Source: Henricia sp. BOLD:AAB3569
Taxonomy: Eukaryota > Echinodermata > Asteroidea > Spinulosida > Echinasteridae
NCBI GenBank assembly: GCA_037783545.1
Contig: JBBELK010000213.1
Coordinates: forward strand, 558,001-622,000
Length of the DNA: 64,000 bases
Direction of reading: 5' to 3'
The first letter of the stretch is position 1. Each line of letters opens with the position of its first letter. Below are positions 1-60,318 of this stretch, piece after piece. Made by a program: the position numbers and the translations under genes. The notes beneath the pieces are model-generated. The model was not told the DNA's origin. It was given only the letters and a program-made list of their open reading frames with translations, and did not search any database.

Positions 1-3000
1 GAAATGGCCGAGAAATTTCAGAGTTTAGGGAAAACTGGGCTCGGGCTTCCTGCCTGGTCTGCAGACCGTGGCTGTCCGTGTACTCCTGACTCGTGCGCAT
101 GCTCAGTCTTGTTTGGGACGGGAATTTGGTCAAAGTGTGGTCCAAACGTCGGCAAATTTGGAAGTCAAGAAATTTTCCGACGAACTTCAAATTGTGCATG
201 CTCCAAACAGTCTATATTCCGTACTTGTCCAGGAAAATTGACAGACTTTCGCCGGGAAATGGCAGAGAAATTTCAGAGTTTAGGGAAAACTGGGCTCGGG
301 CTTCCTGCCTGCTCTGCAGACCGTGGCTGTCCGTGTACTCCTGATCTCTTGTGCGCATGCTCAGTCTTGTTTGGGACCGGAATTTGGTCAAAGTGTGGTC
401 CAAACGTAGGCAAATTTGGAAGTCAAGAAATTTTCCGACGAACTTCAAATTTTGCATGCTCCAAACAGTCTATATTCCGCACTTGTCCTGAAAAATTGAC
501 AGACTTTCGCCGGGAAATGGCCGAGAAATTTCAGAGTTTACGGAAAACTGGGCTGGGGCTTCCTGCCTGCTCTGAGACCGTGGCTGTCCGTGTACTCCTG
601 ACTCGTGCGCATGCTCAGTCTTGTTTGGGACGGGAATTTGGTCAAAGTGTGGTCCAAACGTCGGCAAATTTGGAAGTCATGAAATTTTCGGACGAACTTC
701 AAATTTTGCATGTTCTAAACAGTCTATATTCCGCACTTGTCCTGAAAAATTGGCAGACTTTCGCCCGGAAATGGCCGAGAAATTTCAGAGTTGAAGGGAA
801 AACTGGGCTTGGGCTTCCTGCCTGCTCTGCAGACCGTGGCTGTCCGTGTACTCCTGATCACTCGTGCGCATGCTCAGTCTTGTTTGGGACGGGAATTTGG
901 TCAAAGTGTGGTCCAAACGTCGGCAAATTTGGAAGTCAAGAAATTTTCCGACGAACTTCAAATTGTGCATGCTCCAAACAGTCTATATTCCGCACTTGTC
1001 CTGAAAAATTGACAGACTTTCGCCGGGAAATGGCCGAGAAATTTCAGAGTTTAGGGAAAACTGGGCTCGGGCTTCCTGCCTGCTCTGCAGACCGTGGCTG
1101 TCCGTGTACTCCTGATCACTCGTGCGCATGCTCAGTCTTGTTTGGGACGGGAATTTGGTCAAAGTGTGGTCTAAACGTCGGCAAATTTGGAAGTCAAGAA
1201 ATTATCCGACGAACTTCAAATTTTGCATGCCCCAAACAGTCTATATTCCGCACTTGTCTTGAAAAATTGACAGATTTTCGCCGGGAAATGGTCGAGAAAT
1301 TTCAGAGTTTAGGGAAAACTGGGCTCGGGCTTCCTGCCTGCTCTGCAGACCGTGGCTGTCCGTGTACTCATGATCACTCGTGCGCATGCTCAGTCTTGTT
1401 TGGGACGGGAATATGGTCAAAGTGTGGTCCAAACGTCGACAAATTTGGAATTCAAGAAATTTTCCGACTAACTTCAAATTGTGCATGCTCCAAACAGTCT
1501 ATATTCCGCACTTGTCCTGAAAATTTGACAGACTTTCGCCGGGAAATGGCCGAGAAATGTCAGAGTTTAGGGAAAACTGGGCTCGTGCTTCCTGCCTGGT
1601 CTGCATACCGTGGCTGTCCGTGTACTCCTGATCACTCGTGCGCATGCTCAGTCTTGTTTGGGACGGGAATTTGGTCAAAGTCAAGTCCAAACGTCGGCAA
1701 ATGTGGAAGTCAAGAAATTTTCCGACGAACTTCAAATTTTGCATGCTCCAAACAGTCTATATTCCGCACGTGTCTTGAAAAATTGACAGACTTTCGCCGG
1801 GAAATGGCCGAGAAATTTCAGAGTTTAGGGAAAACTGGGCTCGGGCTTCCTGCCTGCTCTGCAGACCGTGGCTGTCCGTGTACTCCTGATCACTCGTGCG
1901 CATGCTCAGTCTTGTTTGGGACGGGAATTTGGTCAAAGTGTGGTCTAAACGTCGGCAAATTTGGAAGTCAAGAAATTATCCGACGAACTTCAAATTTTGC
2001 ATGCCCCAAACAGTCTATATTCCGCACTTGTCTTGAAAAATTGACAGACTTTCGCCGGGAAATGGTCGAGAAATTTCAGAGTTTAGGGAAAACTGGGCTC
2101 GGGCTTCTTGCCTGCTCTGCAGACCGTGGCTGTCCGTGTACTCATGATCACTCGTGCGCATGCTCGGTCTTGTTTGGGACAGGAATTTGGTCAAAGTGTG
2201 GTCCAAACGTCGTCAAATTTGGAAGTCAAGACATTTTCCGACGAACTTCAAATTTTGCACGCTCTAAACAGTCTATATTCCGCACTTGTCCTGAAAATTT
2301 GACAGACTTTCGCCGGGAAATGGCCGAGAAATGTCAGAGTTTAGGGAAAACTGGGCTCGTGCTTCCTGCCTGGTCTGCATACCGTGGCTGTCCGTGTACT
2401 CCTGATCACTCGTGCGCATGCTCAGTCTTGTTTGGGACGGGAATTTGGTCAAAGTCAAGTCCAAACGTCCGCAAATGTGGAAGTCAATAAATTTTCCGAC
2501 GCACTTCAAATTTTGCATGCTCCAAACAGTCTATATTCCGCACTTGTCCTGAAAAATTGGCAGACTTTCGCCCGGAAATGGCCGAGAAATTTCAGAGTTG
2601 AAGGGAAAACTGGGCTTGGGCTTCCTGCCTGCTCTGCAGACCGTGGCTGTCCGTGTACTCCTGATCACTCGTGCGCATGCTCAGTCTTGTTTGGGACGGG
2701 AATTTGGTCAAAGTGTGGTCCAAACGTCGTCAAATTTGGAAGTCAATAAATTTTCCGACGAACTTCAAATTTTGCATGCTCCAAACAGTCTATATTCCGC
2801 ACTTGTCTTGAAAAATTGACAGACTTTCGCCGGGAAATGGCCGAGAAATTTCAGAGTTTAGGGAAAACTGGGCTCGGGCTTCCTGCCTGCTCTGCAGACC
2901 GTGGCTGTCCGTGTACTCCTGATCACTCGTGCGCATGCTCAGTCTTGTTTGGGACGGGAATTTGGTCAAAGTGTGGTCTAAACGTCGGCAAATTTGGAAG

Positions 3001-3349
3001 TCAAGAAATTATCCGACGAACTTCAAATTTTGCATGCCCCAAACAGTCTATATTCCGCACTTGTCTTGAAAAATTGACAGACTTTCGCCGGGAAATGGTC
3101 GAGAAATTTCAGAGTTTAGGGAAAACTGGGCTCGGGCTTCCTGCCTGCTCTGCAGACCGTGGCTGTCCGTGTACTCCTGATCACTCGTGCGCATGCTCAG
3201 TCTTGTTTGGGACGGGAATTTGGTCAAAGTGTGGTCCAAACGTCGGCAAATTTGGAAGTCAAGAAATTTTCCGACGAACTTCAAATTGTGCATGCTCCAA
3301 ACAGTCTATATTCCGCACTTGTCCTGAAAAATTGACAGACTTTCGCCGG

Positions 3350-37824: not shown

Positions 37825-39624
37825 CTATAATCCGCACTTGTCTTGAAAAATTGACAGACTTTCGCCGGGAAATGGCCGAGAAATTTCAGAGTTTAGGGAA
37901 AACTGGGCTCGGGCTTCCTGCCTGCTCTGCAGACCGTGGCTGTCCGTGTACTCCTGATCACTCGTGCGCATGCTCAGTCTTGTTTGGGACGGGAATTTGG
38001 TCAAAGTGTGGTCTAAACGTCGGCAAATTTGGAAGTCAAGAAATTATCCGACGAACTTCAAATTTTGCATGCCCCAAACAGTCTATATTCCGCACTTGTC
38101 CTGAAAAATTGACAGACTTTCGCCGGGAAATGGCCGAGAAATTTCAGAGTTTAGGGAAAACTGGGCTCGGGCTTCCTGCCTGGTCTGCAGACCGTGGCTG
38201 TCCGTGTACTCCTGACTCGTGCGCATGCTCAGTCTTGTTTGGGACGGGAATTTGGTCAAAGTGTGGTCCAAACGTCGGCAAGTTTGGAAGTCAAGAAATT
38301 TTCCGACGAACTTCAAATTGTGCATGCTCCAAACAGTCTATATTCCGTACTTGTCCTGGAAAATTGACAGACTTTCGCCGTAAAATGGCCGAGAAATTTC
38401 AGAGTTTAGGGAAAACTGGGCTGGGGCTTCCTGCCTGCTCTGCAGACCGTGGCTGTCCGTGTACTCATGATCACTCGTGCGCATGCTTGGTCTTGTTTGT
38501 GACAGGAATTTGGTCAAAGTGTGGTCCAAACGTCGGCAAATTTGGAAGTCAAGACATTTTCCGACGAACTTCAAATTTTGCACGCTCTAAACAGTCTATA
38601 TTCCGCACTTGTCCTGAAAAATTGACAGACTTTCGCCGGGAAATGGCCGAGAAATTTCAGAGTTTAGGGAAAACTGGGCTCGGGCTTCCTGCCTGGTCTG
38701 CAGACCGTGGCTGTCCGTGTACTCCTGACTCGTGCGCATGCTCAGTCTTGTTTGGGACGGGAATTTGGTCAAAGTGTGGTCCAAACGTCGGCAAATTTGG
38801 AAGTCAAGAAATTTTCCGACGAACTTCAAATTGTGCATGCTCCAAACAGTCTATATTCCGTACTTGTCCAGGAAAATTGACAGACTTTCGCCGGGAAATG
38901 GCAGAGAAATTTCAGAGTTTAGGGAAAACTGGGCTCGGGCTTCCTGCCTGCTCTGCAGACCGTGGCTGTCCGTGTACTCCTGATCACTCGTGCGCATGCT
39001 CAGTCTTGTTTGGGACGGGAATTTGGTCAAAGTGTGGTCTAAACGTCGGCAAATTTGGAAGTCAAGAAATTATTCGACGAACTTCAAATTTTGCATGCCC
39101 CAAACAGTCTATATTCCGCACTTGTCTTGAAAAATTGACAGACTTTCGCCGGGAAATGGTCGAGAAATTTCAGAGTTTAGGGAAAACTGGGCTCGGGCTT
39201 CCTGCCTGCTCTGCAGACCGTGGCTGTCCGTGTACTCATGATCACTCGTGCGCATGCTCGGTCTTGTTTGGGACAGGAATTTGGTCAAAGTGTGGTCCAA
39301 ACGTAGGCAAATTTGGAAGTCAAGAAATTTTCCGACGAACTTCAAATTGTGCATGCTCCAAACAGTCTATATTCCGTACTTGTCCAGGAAAATTGACAGA
39401 CTTTCGCCGGGAAATGGCAGAGAAATTTCAGAGTTTAGGGAAAACTGGGCTCGGGCTTCCTGCCTGCTCTGCAGACCGTGGCTGTCCATGTACTCCTGAT
39501 CACTCGTGCGCATGCTCAGTCTTGTTTGGGACGGGAATTTGGTCAAAGTGTGGTCTAAACGTCGGCAAATTTGGAAGTCAAGAAATTATTCGACGAACTT
39601 CAAATTTTGCATGCCCCAAACAGT
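37825..39624. repeat. 12-mer HOR (3,088 bp), copy 2, truncated
   Basis: Repeats the first seven monomers of the 34737 unit, including GGCAAGTTTGG (38278), CGCCGTAAAATGG (38377) and CCAAACGTAGGC (39297). It then departs at the monomer beginning about 39625, which has CCTTGTCTGC. Confidence 0.75.
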
Positions 39625-47173: not shown

Positions 47174-50100
47174 TTGGGCTTCCTGCCTGCTCTGCAGACC
47201 GTGGCTGTCCGTGTACTCCTGATCACTCGTGCGCATGCTCAGTCTTGTTTGGGACGGGAATTTGGTCAAAGTGTGGTCCAAACGTCGGCAAATTTGGAAG
47301 TCAAGAAATTTTCCGACGAACTTCAAATTTTGCATGCTCCAAACAGTCTATATTCCGCACTTGTCTTGAAAAATTGACAGACTTTCGCCGGGAAATGGCC
47401 GAGAAATTTCAGAGTTTAGGGAAAACTGGGCTCGGGCTTCCTGCCTGCTCTGCAGACCGTGGCTGTCCGTGTACTCCTGATCACTCGTGCGCATGCTCAG
47501 TCTTGTTTGGGACGGGAATTTGGTCAAAGTGTGGTCCAAACGTCGGCAAATTTGGAAGTCAAGAAATTTTCCGACGAACTTCAAATTTTGCATGCTCCAA
47601 ACAGTCTATAATCCGCACTTGTCTTGAAAAATTGACAGACTTTCGCCGGGAAATGGCCGAGAAATTTCAGAGTTTAGGGAAAACTGGGCTCGGGCTTCCT
47701 GCCTGCTCTGCAGACCGTGGCTGTCCGTGTACTCCTGATTACTCGTGCGCATGCTCAGTCTTGTTTGGGACGGGAATTTGGTCAAAGTGTGGTCTAAACG
47801 TCGGCAAATTTGGAAGTCAAGAAATTATCCGACGAACTTCAAATTTTGCATGCCCCAAACAGTCTATATTCCGCACTTGTCTTGAAAAATTGACAGACTT
47901 TCGCCGGGAAATGGTCGAGAAATTTCAGAGTTTAGGGAAAACTGGGCTCGGGCTTCCTGCCTGCTCTGCAGACGTGGCTGTCCGTGTACTCCTGATCACT
48001 CGTGCGCATGCTCAGTCTTGTTTGGGACGGGAATTTGGTCAAAGTCAAGTCCAAACGTCGGCAAATGTGGAAGTCAATAAATTTTCCGACGCACTTCAAA
48101 TTTTGCATGCTCCAAACAGTCTATATTCCGCACTTGTCCTGAAAAATTGGCAGACTTTCGCCCGGAAATGGCCGAGAAATTTCAGAGTTGAAGGGAAAAC
48201 TGGGCTTGGGCTTCCTGCCTGCTCTGCAGACCGTGGCTGTCCGTGTACTCCTGATCACTCGTGCGCATGCTCAGTCTTGTTTGGGACGGGAATTTGGTCA
48301 AAGTGTGGTCCAAACGTCGGCAAATTTGGAAGTCAAGAAATTTTCCGACGAACTTCAAATTGTGCATGCTTCAAACAGTCTATATTCCGCACTTGTCCTG
48401 AAAAATTGACAGACTTTCGCCGGGAAATGGCCGAGAAATTTCAGAGTTTAGGGAAAACTGGGCTTGGGCTTCCTGCCTGCTCTGCAGACCGTGGCTGTCC
48501 GTGTACTCCTGATCACTCGTGCGCATGCTCAGTCTTGTTTGGGACGGGAATTTGGTCAAAGTGTGGTCCAAACGTCGGCAAATTTGGAAGTCAAGAAATT
48601 TTCCGACGAACTTCAAATTTTGCATGCTCCAAACAGTCTATATTCCGCACTTGTCTTGAAAAATTGACAGACTTTCGCCGGGAAATGGTCGAGAAATTTC
48701 AGAGTTTAGGGAAAACTGGGCTCGGGCTTCCTGCCTGCTCTGCAGACCGTGGCTGTCCGTGTACTCATGATCACTCGTGCGCATGCTCGGTCTTGTTTGG
48801 GACAGGAATTTGGTCAAAGTGTGGTCCAAACGTCGGCAAATTTGGAAGTCAAGACATTTTCCGACGAACTTCAAATTTTGCACGCTCTAAACAGTCTATA
48901 TTCCGCACTTGTCCTGAAAAATTGACAGACTTTCGCCGGGAAATGGCCGAGAAATTTCAGAGTTTAGGGAAAACTGGGCTCGGGCTTCCTGCCTGGTCTG
49001 CAGACCGTGGCTGTCCGTGTACTCCTGACTCGTGCGCATGCTCAGTCTTGTTTGGGACGGGAATTTGGTCAAAGTGTGGTCCAAACGTCGACAAATTTGG
49101 AATTCAAGAAATTTTCCGACTAACTTCAAATTGTGCATGCTCCAAACAGTCTATATTCCGCACTTGTCCTGAAAATTTGACAGACTTTCGCCGGGAAATG
49201 GCCGAGAAATGTCAGAGTTTAGGGAAAACTGGGCCCGGGCTTCCTGCCTGCTCTGCAGACGTGGCTGTCCGTGTACTCCTGATCACTCGTGCGCATGCTC
49301 AGTCTTGTTTGGGACGGGAATTTGGTCAAAGTCAAGTCCAAACGTCGGCAAATGTGGAAGTCAATAAATTTTCCGACGCACTTCAAATTTTGCATGCTCC
49401 AAACAGTCTATATTCCGCACTTGTCCTGAAAAATTGGCAGACTTTCGCCCGGAAATGGCCGAGAAATTTCAGAGTTGAAGGGAAAACTGGGCTTGGGCTT
49501 CCTGCCTGCTCTGCAGACCGTGGCTGTCCGTGTACTCCTGATCACTCGTGCGCATGCTCAGTCTTGTTTGGGACGGGAATTTGGTCAAAGTGTGGTCCAA
49601 ACGTCGGCAAATTTGGAAGTCAAGAAATTTTCCGACGAACTTCAAATTGTGCATGCTTCAAACAGTCTATATTCCGCACTTGTCCTGAAAAATTGACAGA
49701 CTTTCGCCGGGAAATGGCCGAGAAATTTCAGAGTTTAGGGAAAACTGGGCTTGGGCTTCCTGCCTGCTCTGCAGACCGTGGCTGTCCGTGTACTCCTGAT
49801 CACTCGTGCGCATGCTCAGTCTTGTTTGGGACGGGAATTTGGTCAAAGTGTGGTCCAAACGTCGGCAAATTTGGAAGTCAAGAAATTTTCCGACGAACTT
49901 CAAATTTTGCATGCTCCAAACAGTCTATATTCCGCACTTGTCTTGAAAAATTGACAGACTTTCGCCGGGAAATGGCCGAGAAATTTCAGAGTTTAGGGAA
50001 AACTGGGCTCGGGCTTCCTGCCTGCTCTGCAGACCGTGGCTGTCCGTGTACTCCTGATCACTCGTGCGCATGCTCAGTCTTGTTTGGGACGGGAATTTGG

Positions 50101-51291: not shown

Positions 51292-53797
51292 TTGGGCTTC
51301 CTGCCTGCTCTGCAGACCGTGGCTGTCCGTGTACTCCTGATCACTCGTGCGCATGCTCAGTCTTGTTTGGGACGGAAATTTGGTCAAAGTGTGGTCCAAA
51401 CGTCGGCAAATTTGGAAGTCAAGAAATTTTCCGACGAACTTCAAATTTTGCATGCTCCAAACAGTCTATATTCCGCACTTGTCTTGAAAAATTGACAGAC
51501 TTTCGCCGGGAAATGGCCGAGAAATTTCAGAGTTTAGGGAAAACTGGGCTCGGGCTTCCTGCCTGATCTGCAGACCGTGGCTGTCCGTGTACTCCTGATC
51601 ACTCGTGCGCATGCTCAGTCTTGTTTGGGACGGGAATTTGGTCAAAGTGTGGTCCAAACGTCGGCAAATTTGGAAGTCAAGAAATTTTCCGACGAACTTC
51701 AAATTTTGCATGCTCCAAACAGTCTATATTCCGCACTTGTCTTGAAAAATTGACAGACTTTCGCCGGGAAATGGCCGAGAAATTTCAGAGTTTAGGGAAA
51801 ACTGGGCTCGGGCTTCCTGCCTGCTCTGCAGACCGTGGCTGTCCGTGTACTCCTGATCACTCGTGCGCATGCTCAGTCTTGTTTGGGACGGGAATTTGGT
51901 CAAAATGTGGTCTAAACGTCGGCAAATTTGGAAGTCAAGAAATTATCCGACGAACTTCAAATTTTGCATGCCCCAAACAGTCTATATTCCGCACTTGTCT
52001 TGAAAAATTGACAGACTTTCGCCGGGAAATGGTCGAGAAATTTCAGAGTTTAGGGAAAACTGGGCTCGGGCTTCCTGCCTGCTCTGCAGACCGTGGCTGT
52101 CCGTGTACTCATGATCACTCGTGCGCATGCTCGGTCTTGTTTGGGACAGGAATTTGGTCAAAGTGTGGTCCAAACGTCGGCAAATTTGGAAGTCAAGACA
52201 TTTTCCGACGAACTTCAAATTTTGCACGCTCTAAACAGTCTATATTCCGCACTTGTCCTGAAAAATTGACAGACTTTCGCCGGGAAATGGCCGAGAAATT
52301 TCAGAGTTTAGGGAAAACTGGGCTCGGGCTTCCTGCCTGGTCTGCAGACCGTGGCTGTCCGTGTACTCCTGACTCGTGCGCATGCTCAGTCTTGTTTGGG
52401 ACGGGAATTTGGTCAAAGTGTGGTCCAAACGTCGGCAAATTTGGAAGTCAAGAAATTTTCCGACGAACTTCAAATTGTGCCTGCTCCAAACAGTCTATAT
52501 TCCGTACTTGTCCTGGAAAATTGACAGACTTTCGCCGGAAAATGGCCGAGAAATTTCAGAGTTTAGGGAAAACTGGGCTGGGGCTTCCTGCCTGCTCTGC
52601 AGACCGTGGCTGTCAGTGTACTCATGATCACTCGTGCGCATGCTTGGTCTTGTTTGTGACAGGAATTTGGTCAAAGTGTGGTCCAAACGTCGGCAAATTT
52701 GGAAGTCAAGACATTTTCCGACGAACTTCAAATTTTGCACGCTCTAAACAGTCTATATTCCGCACTTGTCCTGAAAAATTGACAGACTTTCGCCGGGAAA
52801 TGGCCGAGAAATTTCAGAGTTTAGGGAAAACTGAGCTCGGGCTTCCTGCCTGGTATGCAGACCGTGGCTGTCCGTGTACTCCTGACTCGTGCGCATGCTC
52901 AGTCTTGTTTGGGACGGGAATTTGGTCAAAGTGTGGTCCAAACGTCGGCAAATTTGGAAGTCAAGAAATTTTCCGACGAACTTCAAATTGTGCATGCTCC
53001 AAACAGTCTATATTCCGTACTTGTCCAGGAAAATTTACAGACTTTCGCCGGGAAATGGCAGAGAAATTTCAGAGTTTAGGGAAAACTGGGCTGGGGCTTC
53101 CTGCCTGCTCTGCAGACGTGGCTGTCCGTGTACTCCTGACTCGTGCGCATGCTCAGTCTTGTTTGGGACGGGAATTTGGTCAAAGTGTGGTTCAAACGTC
53201 GGCAAATTTGGAAGTCATGAAATTTTCGGACGAACTTCAAATTTTGCATGCTCAAAACAGTCTATATTCCGCACTTGTCCTGAAAAATTGACAGACTTTC
53301 GCCGGGAAATGGCCGAGAAATTTCAGAGTTTAGGGAAAACTGGGCTTGGGCTTCCTGCCTGCTCTGCAGACCGTGGCTGTCCGTGTACTCCTGATCACTC
53401 GTGCGCATGCTCAGTCTTGTTTGGGACGGGAATTTGGTCAAAGTGTGGTCCAAACGTCGGCAAATTTGGAAGTCAAGAAATTTTCCGACGAACTTCAAAT
53501 TTTGCATGCTCCAAACAGTCTATATTCCGCACTTGTCTTGAAAAATTGACAGACTTTCGCCGGGAAATGGCCGAGAAATTTCAGAGTTTAGGGAAAACTG
53601 GGCTCGGGCTTCCTGCCTGCTCTGCAGACCGTGGCTGTCCGTGTACTCCTGATCACTCGTGCGCATGCTCAGTCTTGTTTGGGACGGGAATTTGGTCAAA
53701 GTGTGGTCCAAACGTCGGCAAATTTGGAAGTCAAGAAATTTTCCGACGAACTTAAAATTTTGCATGCTCCAAACAGTCTATAATCCGCACTTGTCTT
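51292..53797. repeat. Satellite block between 16-mer copy 2 and the island
   Basis: Begins like a third 16-mer copy, but after about one monomer changes to a run also found at 61606-63401 on the far side of the island (offset 10,140 bp). Shared marks are CCTGATCTGCAG, GTCAAAATGTGG, TTGTGACAGG and GTCATGAAATTTTCGG. The last monomer carries TATAATCCGC and is cut after CACTTGTCTT by the island. Confidence 0.75.
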
Positions 53798-53821
53798 CAT
53801 TACGAATTTCTCCCATTTAAA
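53798..53821 (+). repeat. Left terminal inverted repeat (24 bp)
   Basis: Runs from CATTACGAA to CCATTTAAA and pairs perfectly with 57745-57768. The base before it is T (end of CTTGTCTT in the monomer), and identity to the right end stops immediately inside 53821. Confidence 0.9.
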
Positions 53822-54323
53822 ATTCTCTAAAAATCCCACATCCTTTTCGGAGAGAAGATTAATGGGAACGTGTCTCCTCTGGGGATAAGTATTAGTCTAA
53901 TCACTCAACCCCTCCTAAAACATGCCAATTGTGATATGCTAACAGTCTACAAACGTCACCAACATGTGGTCCAGGGGAATTCCCAACTGATGGTGCTCTG
54001 AACCTGGGTCAACTAAGTTCAATCCATTAGCACTCCTCTGAGAATTTCCACACAAACTTGGGGGAAAATTATAATAAGTGGCCCACATTGTACATGTAGG
54101 CTATCTCATACACAATTGTTCGTACAAGTAGTTATTTGATGCAGGGTTCCCTCCATTGTACATGTAGTACTGAATCTATATTCAGATTATGCACACCCAA
54201 ATGCTGAGAAAGTTTAAACCCCAGATTGTTTTTCAACACAGTGAAATGAATATTAATTTATATTTGTTGTTTCCAAAGGGAATGGCGAAGGAAGTCCACT
54301 ACCCCACTTGTTTGTGTGTGGGG
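53822..54323. other. Island left arm, no gene seen
   Basis: AT-rich unique-looking sequence with no convincing reading frame or known repeat. It holds several ACATGTA words (for example GTACATGTAGG near 54090 and GTACATGTAGTAC near 54160). A 75-codon frame at 54189-54413 is low in complexity and unlikely to be coding. Confidence 0.5.
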
Positions 54324-54392
54324 ATAATAATAAATAATAATAATGAGATTTGTAAAGCGCACATATCCACCCTGCAGGGTGCTCAAGGAGCT
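54324..54392. repeat. AATAAT run plus palindromic segment, dispersed-repeat-like
   Basis: An ATAATAATAAATAATAATAA tract (54324-54345) is followed by GAGATTTGTAAAGCGC and a perfect 14-bp palindrome CACCCTGCAGGGTG (54368-54381), then GCTCAAGGAGCT. A trinucleotide A/T run next to a short GCGC...GCT stem resembles short interspersed repeats that I recall from marine invertebrate genomes. I cannot name the family, and the assignment is from memory of the pattern only. Confidence 0.4.
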
Positions 54393-55830
54393 GAAACAAC
54401 AAAAATTAAGTAATTAATTCTTGAAAATTTGCGACATCAAGTAAGTCTTTAGGGGTACATGTATGCCCCCATTTCAAAATGTTTGTATTTGTTGTCCCCA
54501 TTTTTACAATCTTCAATGATCCATTTTATTCAAGGTGTTTGTAGGGGGAGGGGTACGTGTTCACTTGCCAATGTGTAAATTGTGTCCTAAGGTCTCAACA
54601 ACCCTGTCATGGCAGATACAGCATTTTTCACACAATGTAGATTTGATTCAATAAAACTTGACTAATGATGTACAGCTGATCAGAGCGCTAACACAACAAC
54701 AACATAAGTATTTTGTTCCTATGCGACCGAATGTTTGTTGAATATTATTTGCAACAAATAAACTGTTGGCGCAGCTTTACACAAAATCAAAGATGCGGCA
54801 TATTTAATTATGCAAGCACATGTAGCAGGTTTTTCTTTGGCAAAATGTCAAGTTTGAAGTGCTGTGAGGCAATTTCATAAATCAAAAAAATCACAAAACG
54901 TAACAACTTAGGTATTTTAAACAGCTAGGACCTGGGTCACTGATGAAGGTTTAAATTTGGTAGCTTCACGTGTTAAGTGTATTTGCACTCAAATAAGTTA
55001 ACCAATAAAAGCAAACACTAATACAGGTTTATTAACAGTAGGCCTAATGGAGTTCTAAAAACAAAACCTACAAAAATAGGGAAAATAAAGCAGCCCAAAA
55101 CATGAAGAACCTCAAAACGTATGCACATACAATGGGCAATGAAGTGGAAATGACAAAATATGACAATCACCAGATTCTCTGGTAAAATGAAACGTTAATA
55201 TAATACATGTAGTGAAGATACATGTACATGTACTCTGAAATAAAGTAGGCCATACATAAGAACATTGATACAAAAAACTTCCAAGCCGAAGCAAATATAA
55301 ATCACCGAGTCTTGTGTTTTTATCAGAACAAATTCTCAAAGAATATTCACAAATAAATCTTGTATTTTCATTTGAAACAATTCAAGTCTGCATGTGCAAA
55401 CTTGTACAAACCATGTGCAGCTGTATATCGTCCATAATTTCAAATGTTAATTACACTGAATTTATTCGTTGTTCCGAATTTTAAATTAAATCATCCACGT
55501 TGGCATTTTGCTTTTTCTGTTCGATGCTTGGCCTGTTTTCGCTTTCCACATTTCCATATTTGTGTTTTTCAACATTAGACAGCCCTGAATACTCTTTGCA
55601 GCCGGCCAAATAACTTTGCTTGTTCAGGGAAATAACCTAGCTTGTGAGTACTTAAATGATGCTTTCTTTTTAAGTTTGCGTAAAATAAAACAAAATATTT
55701 TTTTCAACATTGAGATTGTTAGCAGACTGTTTTGATTTACATGATGCATGTATCTTTCTTTTGTTTTTTTTAATGAGGCTTATCATTCGGGTTTTCTTAC
55801 AAAAAATTGCCATGAAGTGTTGGTTGCTGA
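54393..55830. other. Island centre-left, noncoding
   Basis: AT-rich sequence with no supported gene. Small frames (for example 55112-55339 and 55670-55882, minus) are low in complexity. For the minus-strand coding remnant ending at 55831 this would be 3' sequence: a TTTATT at 55461-55466 is an AATAAA on the minus strand, about 370 bases past the stop. TAGGCCTAA near 55040 and ACATGTACATGTAC near 55220 are typical of the island's texture. Confidence 0.45.
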
Positions 55831-56428
55831 TTAATTTTTCCTGAGTAGTTTGATTAGGTCCGGCATGTAATTGTCTTTGCAAACTTGGGTGTTGCTTTCA
55901 ATACTGTCGAAGATGAATTTGTATTCTACAACCGGATATCTCCGTTGTATGGCCTCTCTTGCAATATCTGGAATTTTCTTGGAATTGATTATTGCTTGCT
56001 CATTGACAGGGATATGGTAAATTTTTGTTGACTGTCACTTACAATTATGTAGTGTTGCCTGGTAGGGCATTGCTTACTTTGCCACGAAGAGAAACTAGTT
56101 TTTGCTGAAGTGTCTCATGAGTCCATTTATTCCCAGCCTGTTTAGGGACTGCACCAACTAAAACAAATGTGACACCTGCAAAGAGCCCTTTATTTGATGG
56201 ATACTCTGCTTTTGATGGGTGTAATATTGAATGGATTTCGTCAACAACCTCAACTTTGTCCACTCTTTGTACGTAGAGATGGATTATATTTTGTTCCGAA
56301 CAACTTTCGACGGAGTAATATAACCCCGAAATACCGCTTGTATCAAGCAAGCTAGCAGCGACATGTTTCTTAACATGTACACGCCATATGCTTCGATCGT
56401 TTCTCCAACTGTTCTTTCTGATGAACAC
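55831..56428 (-). pseudogene. Frameshifted BRCT-like domain coding remnant
   Basis: Reading leftwards from 56428, one frame gives a 127-codon stretch ending at TAA 56045-56047. It contains FAGVTFVLVGAVPKQ and then ETLQQKLVSLRGKV, matching the first strand and helix of a BRCT fold (hydrophobic strand, G, helix, (G)GKV). The reading continues in a second frame as HYIIVSDSQQ (about 56025-56054, the usual T/H-x-I-V strand). A third frame follows as NSKKIPDIAREAI, YPVVEYKFIFDSIES and CKDNYM, ending at TAA 55831-55833; this matches the helix, the 'pivs-x-x-W/F-x-x-DSI' element and the final Y of the family. Two small indels are therefore needed, so the copy is inactive as written. The roughly 60 residues before the domain are not recognised. 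BRCT domains bind phosphoproteins or partners in DNA repair; which protein this came from is unknown. F replaces the usual W. Confidence 0.6.
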
Positions 56429-56514
56429 ATGATTTGATATGATAATTGTCTATACATGTACATGGTTGATAATAGAGAGAGCTAGAGTAATGGGTCGGTC
56501 TTTGTTTTGCCACC

Positions 56515-56712
56515 ATGTCTAGTCGTGTGTTGAAAATAATGGCGACTCATATAGTTGAGGTGCGCTCTCCACCCGCTCAGTTTGAAAACGTACATGGGAA
56601 AATCTGCGTGGTCCATGAAATATCTGGTTCTGTACGGGGTAATATTTTTCCCAGGTATAGGCCTATGCTTACAGAGCAATTGATAGAAACACACTGCATG
56701 TTTCTTATTTAA
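56515..56712 (+). CDS. Doubtful 65-codon plus-strand frame
   Basis: An ATG at 56515 sits in a good Kozak-like context (GCCACCATGT) and opens 65 codons to TAA. An internal CCCAGGTATAGG (about 56650) could be a splice donor. The product resembles nothing I know. The opposite strand is also open here for 70 codons (56482-56694), and neither can be preferred from sequence alone. It may simply be antisense to the minus-strand remnant. Listed because the start context is unusual for the island. Confidence 0.15.
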   Translation: MSSRVLKIMATHIVEVRSPPAQFENVHGKICVVHEISGSVRGNIFPRYRPMLTEQLIETHCMFLI

Positions 56713-57285
56713 AGCATGGAGCTATAAAAGGTTGTTTCGTACTGTACCCCCCATATATAATATTCTGTATTCAAATAAATTGGGAAGAGGACAGACAAAT
56801 TGGATTGAGAGACGTTTAATCTGTGAAAAATACAAGAAAGTACGGAACGTCAGAGCCTTGAAGTTTTACTAGTAACAATTGTGGTTCTGGATCTGTCTTT
56901 AAAATGTCATACATTACATAAATGCTGTTCCAATTTGTTGGGGACAACATTTTCATAACATGGGAAAATTGCTTTTCTCCCAAGTGGAACAGGACTAATT
57001 ATAATGCATGATCTTTGCTAAGACTGATGGGTTCTTGTTTTCCGCTTTTATTAAAATTAATTTGAAAATTGCCTTGTCGGATACTCATTTTATTGATATT
57101 TGAAACTAAATTGTCGATAAGTTGCTTCATTGAAGGTGTGCTTTGTTTTAGTTGTTGTGCCTTGTGTCTTTCGGACAATTTTTTTTGGGAGTTCAAGGTT
57201 CAACAACTTTTCTACTACCCTGGTCAAACCATACATTGTGTCAAATACATTATGCTTAACAGGTATGAATGGCACGAGTGACTCC
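56708..57285 (-). pseudogene. Degenerate coding remnant upstream of the BRCT fragment, family unknown
   Basis: On the minus strand an open stretch starts at 57285, just after a CACAG that could be a splice acceptor, and reads VPFIPVKHNVFDTMYG. At a run of eight T (57179-57186) the coding signal moves to another frame, which stays open for about 126 codons down to 56819. Its only interruption is one TAA at 56999-57001. It includes STPSMKQLIDNLVSNI before that stop, and KMLSPTNWNSIYVMYD and QGSDVPYFLVFF after it. A further frame change near 56817 leads to LFPIYLNTEYYIWGVQ and a TAA at 56709. The residue composition is protein-like, but I recognise no family. Order and strand suggest it belonged to the same gene as the BRCT remnant. 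No normal start codon was found. Confidence 0.45.
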
Positions 57286-57744
57286 CTGTGTACTATGTAA
57301 ATCAGTCCTTAAACCATTTCAATTAGCAACGTACATGTACTTCACACTTTTGTGCTTTTCCTGCTACATGTAGGCCTAAGTGATAAAAATGCCACCCAAA
57401 CTCTGAGACAGGACCGAGTTGTTTGGACCCAACAAAATTAACATATAGATTATTAAATTTAACTTAGTGATAATGACTTAATTTCCACGTTTTCTTATTT
57501 TTATATTCCTACGCATGAAGCTGGTGGTTATTGCAGCAACCACATGTAACTACCATCAGTGGATAAAAAAAACCAGTCAATTCCATTACCCATGTGGCAC
57601 ACTGTACACTTATAGAGGTCAATAGGCTATTACTACCTTGGCTGTGACCCACAAGGGGCTATTACAATTATGTCCGCTGGGGACAGCTGTCACTTTTGAA
57701 TGCGATGCGCTATTTCCGAGTTAGAAAGCTCCAACTCGGATTCG
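57286..57744. other. Island right arm, noncoding
   Basis: AT-rich sequence without a supported gene, between the minus-strand coding remnant and the right TIR. It contains GCTACATGTAGGCCTAAG (57363-57380), a short AAAAAAA tract (about 57566) and the subterminal hairpin at 57715-57740. If the minus-strand remnant was a gene, its promoter or first intron would lie here; no TATA element could be tied to a start. Confidence 0.45.
57715..57740. repeat. Subterminal hairpin near the right end of the island
   Basis: TCCGAGTT (57715-57722) and AACTCGGA (57733-57740) are perfect 8-bp inverted arms around a 10-base loop, four bases inside the right TIR. No matching hairpin was seen near the left end. 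A 3'-subterminal hairpin is a Helitron-like trait, but the other Helitron terminal features are missing. Confidence 0.6.
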
Positions 57745-57768
57745 TTTAAATGGGAGAAATTCGTAATG
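57745..57768 (-). repeat. Right terminal inverted repeat (24 bp)
   Basis: TTTAAATGGG...TTCGTAATG is the exact reverse complement of 53798-53821. The following bases, GAAAAATTGACAG, resume the satellite monomer at the point where it was interrupted. Confidence 0.9.
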
Positions 57769-60318
57769 GAAAAATTGACAGACTTTCGCCGGGAAATGGC
57801 CGAGAAATTTCAGAGTTTAGGGAAAACTGGGCTCGGGCTTCCTACCTGCTCTGCAGACCGTGGCTGTCCGTGTACTCCTGATAACTCGTGCGCATGCTCA
57901 GTCTTGTTTGGGACGGGAATTTGGTCAAAGTGTGGTCTAAACGTCGGCAAATTTGGAAGTCAAGAAATTATCCGACGAACTTCAAATTTTGCATGCCCCA
58001 AACAGTCTATATTCCGCACTTGTCTTGAAAAATTGACAGACTTTCGCCGGGAAATGGTCGAGAAATTTCAGAGTTTAGGGAAAACTGGGCTCGGGCTTCC
58101 TGCCTGCTCTGCAGACGTGGCTGTCCGTGTACTCCTGATCACTCGTGCGCATGCTCAGTCTTGTTTGGGACGGGAATTTGGTCAAAGTCAAGTCCAAACG
58201 TCGGCAAATGTGGAAGTCAATAAATTTTCCGACGCACTTCAAATTTTGCATGCTCCAAACAGTCTATATTCCGCACTTGTCCTGAAAAATTGGCAGACTT
58301 TCGCCCGGAAATGGCCGAGAAATTTCAGAGTTTAGGGAAAACTGGGCTTGGGCTTCCTGCCTGCTCTGCAGACCGTGGCTGTCCGTGTACTCCTGATCAC
58401 TCGTGCGCATGCTCGGTCTTGTTTGGGACAGGAATTTGGTCAAAGTGTGGTCCAAACGTCGGCAAATTTGGAAGTCAAGACATTTTCCGACGAACTTCAA
58501 ATTTTGCACGCTCTAAACAGTCTATATTCCGCACTTGTCCTGAAAAATTGACAGACTTTCGCCGGGAAATGGCCGAGAAATTTCAGAGTTTAGGGAAAAC
58601 TGGGCTCGGGCTTCCTGCCTGGTCTGCAGACCGTGGCTGTCCGTGTACTCCTGACTCGTGCGCATGCTCAGTCTTGTTTGGGACGGGAATTTGGTCAAAG
58701 TGTGGTCCAAACGTCGACAAATTTGGAATTCAAGAAATTTTCCGACTAACTTCAAATTGTGCATGCTCCAAACAGTCTATATTCCGCACTTGTCCTGAAA
58801 ATTTGACAGACTTTCGCCGGGAAATGGCCGAGAAATGTCAGAGTTTAGGGAAAACTGGGCGCGGGCTTCCTGCCTGCTCTGCAGACGTGGCTGTCCGTGT
58901 ACTCCTGATCACTCGTGCGCATGCTCAGTCTTGTTTGGGACGGGAATTTGGTCAAAGTCAAGTCCAAACGTCGGCAAATGTGGAAGTCAATAAATTTTCC
59001 GACGCACTTCAAATTTTGCATGCTCCAAACAGTCTATATTCCGCACTTGTCCTGAAAAATTGGCAGACTTTCGCCCGGAAATGGCCGAGAAATTTCAGAG
59101 TTGAAGGGAAAACTGGGCTTGGGCTTCCTGCCTGCTCTGCAGACCGTGGCTGTCCGTGTACTCCTGATCACTCGTGCGCATGCTCAGTCTTGTTTGGGAC
59201 GGGAATTTGGTCAAAGTGTGGTCCAAACGTCGGCAAATTTGGAAGTCAAGAAATTTTCCGACGAACTTCAAATTTTGCATGCTCCAAACAGTCTATATTC
59301 CGCACTTGTCTTGAAAAATTGACAGACTTTCGCCGGGAAATGGCCGAGAAATTTCAGAGTTTAGGGAAAACTGGGCTCGGGCTTCCTGCCTGGTCTGCAG
59401 ACCGTGGCTGTCCGTGTACTCCTGACTCGTGCGCATGCTCAGTCTTGTTTGGGACGGGAATTTGGTCAAAGTGTGGTCCAAACGTCGGCAAATTTGGAAG
59501 TCAAGAAATTTTCCGACGAACTTCAAATTGTGCATGCTCCAAACAGTCTATATTCCGTACTTGTCCTGGAAAATTGACAGACTTTCGCAGGAAAATGGCC
59601 GAGAAATTTCAGAGTTTAGGGAAAACTGGGCTGGGGCTTCCTGCCTGCTCTGCAGACCGTGGCTGTCCGTGTACTCATGATCACTCGTGCGCATGCTTGG
59701 TCTTGTTTGTGACAGGAATTTGGTCAAAGTGTGGTCCAAACGTCGGCAAATTTGGAAGTCAAGACATTTTCCGACGAACTTCAAATTTTGCACGCTCTAA
59801 ACAGTCTATATTCCGCACTTGTCCTGAAAAATTGACAGACTTTCGCCGGGAAATGGCCGAGAAATTTCAGAGTTTAGGGAAAACTGAGCTCGGGCTTCCT
59901 GCCTGGTCTGCAGACCGTGGCTGTCCGTGTACTCCTGACTCGTGCGCATGCTCAGTCTTGTTTGGGACGGGAATTTGGTCAAAGTGTGGTCCAAACGTCG
60001 GCAAATTTGGAAGTCAAGAAATTTTCCGACGAACTTCAAATTGTGCATGCTCCAAACAGTCTATATTCCGTACTTGTCCAGGACAATTGACAGACTTTCG
60101 CCGGGAAATGGCAGAGAAATTTCAGAGTTTAGGGAAAACTGGGCTGGGGCTTCCTGCCTGCTCTGCAGACCGTGGCTGTCCGTGTACTCCTGATCACTCG
60201 TGCGCATACTCAGTCTTGTTTGGGACGGAAATTTGGTCAAAGTGTGGTCCAAACGTCGGCAAATTTGGAAGTCAAGAAATTTTCCGACGAACTTCAAATT
60301 TTGCATGCTCCAAACAGT

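Follow-up and report, generated by a model that had tools for sequence, protein, structure and literature searches.

In this study, we analyzed a window of 64,000 nucleotides from the genome assembly of Henricia sp. BOLD:AAB3569 (contig C213, positions 558001–622000), in which a satellite array is interrupted by an island of 3971 bp with a higher AT content than the surrounding satellite. The island is bounded by terminal inverted repeats (TIRs) of 24 bp, which are complementary at 24 of 24 positions, as had been claimed in an earlier interpretation made from the letters of the window alone (in the following, the sequence-only reading). When the 24-mer was searched in the window with up to three mismatches, exactly these two occurrences were found (expected number in 100 shuffles: 0). 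With the island removed, the monomer reads CACTTGTCTT|GAAAAATTGACAG. Since the flanking bases on the two sides differ, the junction cannot be slid, and the target duplication at this site is therefore exactly zero.

The array itself provides empty counterparts of the insertion site. The motif TATAATCCGC is present at window positions 37826, 42199, 43489, 46066, 47607, and 50184, and GTCTAAAC lies 185 bp downstream of each of the six, in the same arrangement as around the island. In all six equivalent repeats the junction is empty, with 1170–1193 identities to the island flanks per 1200 bp. At the pattern-matched places of the excised window the junction reads TTGAAA (n = 88) or CTGAAA (n = 86), and no other length was found. 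At its own site, the island was inserted precisely and duplicated no target base. Thereby, the earlier claim that excision restores the satellite without gain or loss of a base was confirmed for this site. The six pairs of directly neighboring monomers that it had listed are all present and empty, at positions 2–8 bases off from those it gave, and they bear out that a TIR-bounded element entered an already ordered array. The features of the island and its surroundings are listed in Table 1.

Table 1. Island, insertion site and decayed coding remnants in the window (positions of the window; strand as noted)
Feature	Position	Strand	Basis
Inserted element, 3971 bp (apparent internal-deletion copy of a 12-kb transposon)	53798..57768	.	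Ends, excision, empty sites, family matches
Left TIR, 24 bp	53798..53821	+	Self-complementarity with right end; 24-mer search of assembly
Right TIR, 24 bp	57745..57768	-	Self-complementarity with left end; 24-mer search of assembly
Left flank, satellite monomer containing TATAATCCGC, ending CTTGTCTT	53778..53797	+	Sequence, excision
Right flank, monomer resumes with GAAAAATTGACAG	57769..57790	+	Sequence, excision
Most similar empty site of the window; junction precedes 47626	47607..47640	+	1193 identities per 1200 bases
Possible stem-loop, 8-bp outer stem, just inside right TIR	57715..57740	+	Weak fold, z -1.6
Degenerate piece of the long reading frame present in the 12-kb copy (GSKQL..GWHFYHL..AGKAQK)	57341..57430	-	tblastn of the 483-residue piece, 77% over 30 residues, E 1.5e-9
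Additional remnants resembling coding sequence, in two frames (57308-57090, 57199-56999)	56999..57308	-	Assignment to the same frame presumed from position
Decayed IQ and BRCT part belonging to that long frame, with stops and frame changes	55493..56506	-	tblastn of L081:1856-2938 (C232 protein), E 5.9e-69; Pfam on L081 protein

The assembly (741 Mb, 2104 contigs) was searched with the whole island and with the 24-bp terminus, as the sequence-only reading had proposed, and a dispersed family was found. For naming of the copies, W designates the island of the window, L-numbers designate fetched stretches, and C-numbers designate contigs. The whole-island search yielded at least 65 matches (40 of 416 candidates scored); among the matches listed, 12 including the window's own are of full length with 93–100% identity. 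The 24-mer, with up to three mismatches, was found at 104 termini, 53 forward and 51 reverse, while the reversed-pattern control gave 0 and 1. The island is one copy of a family, as had been suggested.

Twenty copies, 20 additional stretches, and the terminal flanks of other copies were retrieved. The comparison of insertions covered 44 distinct cases in which both ends could be read (43 and, in addition, that on C232); C1969 was excluded as a duplicate, its flanks being identical to those of C520. The outer hexamers CATTAC..GTAATG are intact in 41 of the 44 copies (32 placed by script and 9 within tandem repeats read by hand), the exceptions being L021, L026, and C258. Across copies inserted at unrelated sites, inverted ends that are mostly near-identical over 24 bp form the precise borders, as in DNA transposons with TIRs. 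Two copies, L009 and L010, match the island over its whole length with 99.6% and 99.5% identity. At their unrelated sites, W, L009, and L010 mutually differ by 0.18–0.20% substitutions, so that their movement was recent. Alignment of the 12 full-length copies (W, L009–L018, L025) gave at most 2.3% substitutions but up to 40 insertions or deletions (indels) per 4 kb. The ratio of indels to substitutions is 0.32–0.58, a value without a control family for comparison. Many of the indels are short duplications or insertions, e.g. TAGGCC(TA), and resemble repair or excision scars.

The bases on the two sides of the insertions were then compared over the whole set. The base directly before the element is identical to the base directly after it in 27 of 43 insertions (28 of 44 with C232), while shuffled pairing of the flanks gave a mean of 11.2 and a maximum of 22 in 5000 trials. 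Matches of two bases were found in 9 of 43 insertions (random mean 3.3, maximum 10), six of them without a one-base match. Matches of three or four bases did not occur among the 43 insertions, and a single match of five bases was found in L035 (random mean 0.09, attained in 8.6% of trials).

The alignment of insertions with their empty sites, likewise proposed by the sequence-only reading, was carried out for 19 insertions. Empty sites were taken from the same satellite, from other tandem repeats, or from dispersed copies; for C232 a tandem repeat of L018 served as empty site. Seven insertions gained no base (W, L017, L028, L025, L048, C301, C611), ten gained one (L018, L024, L019, C96, L034, L036, C520, L016, L013, C232), and two gained two (L040, L010). 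In L018 there is an extra substitution adjoining the junction. No loss of target was found at any of the 19 accepted sites. From the 21 spanning-hit entries present before C232 was added, C1969 (duplicate of C520), L046 (matching its own end), and L047 were left out.

The duplication length of the family is variable, ranging from 0 to 2 bp, with one base as the commonest class; the fixed length usual for TIR transposons was not found. Because other copies gained one or two bases, the family is not a zero-duplication element. The absence of a target-site duplication, as originally described, therefore holds for the island site and fails for the family, and a constant duplication, which had been named as evidence that would speak against the proposal of a new family, was not seen either. 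No strong target motif was found in ten columns of 88 half-sites (largest chi-square 10.0; 3 degrees of freedom), in which positions 3–5 from the junction have a weak base bias. The target AAA|TTT occurs at 1 of 44 sites (L028), and at 10 of 44 sites at least one flank matches the satellite of the window.

Frames longer than 199 residues were absent in the 17 copies scanned (3.7–4.1 kb). A divergent relative on C232, 4650 bp in length, contains a 361-residue frame with Pfam matches to IQ (E 2.3e-4) and BRCT_2 (E 6.4e-7). In the assembly, the C232 protein matches C641:104903–105859 with 97% within a long frame. A second match, confined to the first 41 residues of this protein, lies at C641:113245–113367, 7.4 kb away. 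The two matches on C641 share one phase. By a search with variant TIRs, both ends were located at C641:102068–102091 and 114050–114073, delimiting an element of 12,006 bp. A part of 1.45 kb, about 0.3 of its frame, was read; it comprises a stop-free run of 483 residues, of which 482 were used in searches. The first 399 of these residues lie in a frame of 1624 residues and match no more than two loci of the genome at E ≤ 0.001, namely C641, where the frame is intact, and C1512, where it is broken at 82%. The IQ-BRCT match on C641 was reported within a frame of 1719 with one TAA, which we would read as 1624 residues, the stop, and 94 further residues, the stop presumably being placed after the BRCT part.

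The 12,006-bp element on C641 is the likely master copy. Three further copies were considered for this role and rejected: C96, containing a frame judged gag-like by eye and a large amount of unrelated DNA; C6, carrying an extra internal stretch; and C258, having altered end bases and no long frame resembling that of the family. The gag-like frame of C96 has 337 residues, is followed by an acidic frame (L031, 2511–4189), and is located inside the family copy; it probably represents a nested retroelement. Beside the C6 copy there is a simple repeat that stays open over long distances in several frames (L020, 2–775). C919 and C203 have only one end in common with the island. Inward of the lone family end of C919, two different mariner/Tc1-like frames were recognized by eye (L079, L071; 3866–4621 and 6233–6799, counted inward from the family end). 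In L043 (C188:220955–226795), two right ends of the family share orientation and target bases within a single satellite stretch, the island match ceasing in the first after about 730 bp; these paired ends are possibly due to an array duplication of one insertion.

The right 338 bp of the island align with C641, and at window position 57430 the island passes directly into the frame at residue 458 of the read piece, as expected of an internal deletion. Judged by the positions on C641, the island lacks about 6.9 kb at this breakpoint relative to the 12-kb form. The C232 element is a different deletion of the same parent element, and further classes lack island bases 1081–1940 (e.g. L033, L034, L039) or 1586–3003 (L036, L037, L038, L040, L041). 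The copies of 4 kb and 4.65 kb thus appear to be derived from the 12-kb element by internal deletion. Several deletion classes with retained ends are what is commonly seen where internally deleted copies are mobilized in trans. Such derivatives of cut-and-paste transposons are known for P and Ac/Ds, with which the present family shares the retained ends, the lost middle, and the occurrence of several deletion classes in several copies each. The difference is that the likely master copy here bears an unrecognized 1624-residue frame with IQ and BRCT.

For the six read-through frames of the island, Pfam gave only weak matches to BRCT_2 (E 0.12) and DUF1266 (E 0.11), and a 241-residue string including decayed pieces matched only PilZN1 (E 0.22). 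The read part of the C641 frame contains IRLWGDGREIGG and YYLSGDEMFIIKILDGS, and decayed copies continue with DTMYGLTRVVEKLLNLE; as a guess from the residues, these could be the acidic-site motifs of an RNase H-like enzyme. DDE_Tnp_4 was not detected in the 482 residues searched, and C641 is not among its matches listed (150 of 606 candidates scored). Neither is C641 among the 150 matches listed for Helitron_like_N (150 of 173 candidates scored); matches of this domain were found inside open frames of 2,000–4,000 residues on C657, C1030, and others in the same genome. The 482 residues gave no Pfam match to a tyrosine recombinase. The KDZ transposase domain had no match in the whole genome, in a search whose control matched nowhere either. 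The exact 24-mer was not found in viral contigs, the C641 piece had no relatives in viral and prokaryote collections, and the IQ-BRCT protein had none in viral contigs. Searches of the PDB by sequence returned nothing for the BRCT pieces of the island or the L081 protein.

Taken together, the island is probably a non-autonomous, recently transposed, internally deleted copy of a family of the cut-and-paste type with TIRs, which makes a nearly blunt and variable target cut. The 1624-residue frame would encode the transposase, which would bind the TIRs and excise the element at its exact ends. The ends would then be joined to the two target strands at positions 0–2 nucleotides apart, and gap filling would leave a duplication of 0–2 bp. 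Internally deleted copies may arise by incomplete gap repair and could be mobilized in trans. As a guess, host repair or replication factors might be recruited by the IQ and BRCT parts. More tentatively, and with somewhat more doubt than confidence, we propose that the family might represent an undescribed animal superfamily with a transposase of about 1600 residues and C-terminal IQ and BRCT parts, joining strands 0–2 nucleotides apart and thereby yielding duplication-free insertions as well as insertions with 1–2 bp.

Several points weigh against the proposal of such a cut-and-paste family. A variable duplication of 0–2 bp is unusual for one transposase. No catalytic domain was recognized: neither the 399 residues of L082 nor the 482 of the C641 piece gave a Pfam match at E ≤ 10, PDB sequence matches of the C641 piece were at chance level (E 0.32, 1.5, 0.98), and structure models from the single sequence were too poor to use (pLDDT 34 and 36). 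The assignment of IQ-BRCT to the 1624-residue frame is inferred from the phase and the reported frame lengths. At the empty sites, identity is low for L013 (80%), L010 (85%), and L016 (90%), and the omitted L047 (86% identity, other gaps) resembled a loss of one base, but was ambiguous.

Among the other explanations, it appears unlikely that a transposase only excises the element and that the released molecule is then captured at double-strand breaks with nearly blunt ends through ordinary end joining. Gains of 0–2 bp would be compatible with the filling of short overhangs, and the 10 of 44 sites with a flank matching the window satellite as well as the many short indels in the copies would suit such a capture, but insertions without any target loss at 19 empty sites and with intact outer ends in 41 of 44 copies are too clean for it. 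Slightly less credible is a constant duplication of one base, from which the zero and two cases arose by later mutation. One base is indeed the commonest class (10 of 19); however, the insertions without duplication retain intact element ends and precise flanks, six of the seven at 98–100% empty-site identity (C611: 93%), and the substitution level of 0.2% between W and L009 or L010 leaves little time for precise loss.

A constant zero-duplication element like Spy, with a blunt target cut, is very improbable. Spy, a member of the PHIS superfamily, inserts at AAA|TTT without duplication (PMC4482050, PMC11304231). The present elements resemble it as TIR-bounded elements of several kb with some duplication-free insertions: the seven zero sites include the window copy, L017 and L028 match their empty sites with 100% over 120 bp, and L028 is located at AAA|TTT. 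However, 12 of 19 empty sites gained bases (ten one, two two), the number of insertions with identical bases on both sides (27 of 43) far exceeds the shuffles, AAA|TTT is found at 1 of 44 sites without any strong target motif, and no DDE_Tnp_4 match was obtained in the 482 residues searched. For the family, L024, L019, C96, C520, C232, and L040 already refute this explanation, barring assembly errors.

We give hardly any credence to a rolling-circle element of the Helentron/Helitron2 type as the cause of the missing duplication. Some copies are free of duplication, and a hairpin is possible near one end: the stem-loop inside the right TIR recurs at the right end of C641 and in part at that of C232, but it is weak, since neither its z-score of -1.6 nor that of the left 73 nucleotides (-1.5), which fold differently, is clearly beyond shuffles. 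Against it stand symmetric TIRs at the very ends, whereas for Helentrons the inverted repeats are reported 2–4 nucleotides from the 5′ end and 38–60 bp from the 3′ end, with TT targets (PMC4067079). In addition, one- and two-base duplications exist at most judged sites, and no Rep match of C641 was listed, as given above. A nested arrangement, in which the 8-bp palindrome CATTAATG or a 42-bp palindrome would represent an earlier insertion that contains an element targeting TA or TTAA, was rejected, as perfect TIRs of such sequence inevitably permit it and the complete outer ends are common to 41 of 44 copies.

Cryptons are not known to carry TIRs and use a tyrosine recombinase, while TIRs are present here. 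The setting aside of Spy, Crypton, and Helitron by the sequence-only reading fits the tests of targets, ends, and duplications made. Kolobok elements, also TIR DNA transposons, duplicate TTAA. For KolobokP, long terminal direct repeats and an occurrence in seven animal phyla including Echinodermata are reported (PMC9587614). Neither long terminal direct repeats nor a TTAA duplication was seen in the present family. TIRs and short target duplications are shared with ISL2EU, Pangu, NuwaI, NuwaII, and PIF-Harbinger, for which PMC4482050 gives fixed duplications of 2 or 3 bp and fixed motifs, in contrast to 0–2 bp without a strong motif here. In a literature search covering titles and the openings of abstracts, with few subscription papers, no transposon with a BRCT-bearing transposase or with a variable duplication of 0–2 bp was found.

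The length of the target duplication is one of the main keys for the classification of DNA transposons and reflects how far apart the two strand-transfer sites lie. To our knowledge, it is fixed or nearly fixed in the described families, or a duplication is missing, as in Spy. Caution is advisable in that a zero-duplication family should not be called from a single copy. With a family whose duplication varies from 0 to 2 bases at paralogous empty sites and with a candidate master copy at hand, a near-blunt joining mechanism would become directly testable.

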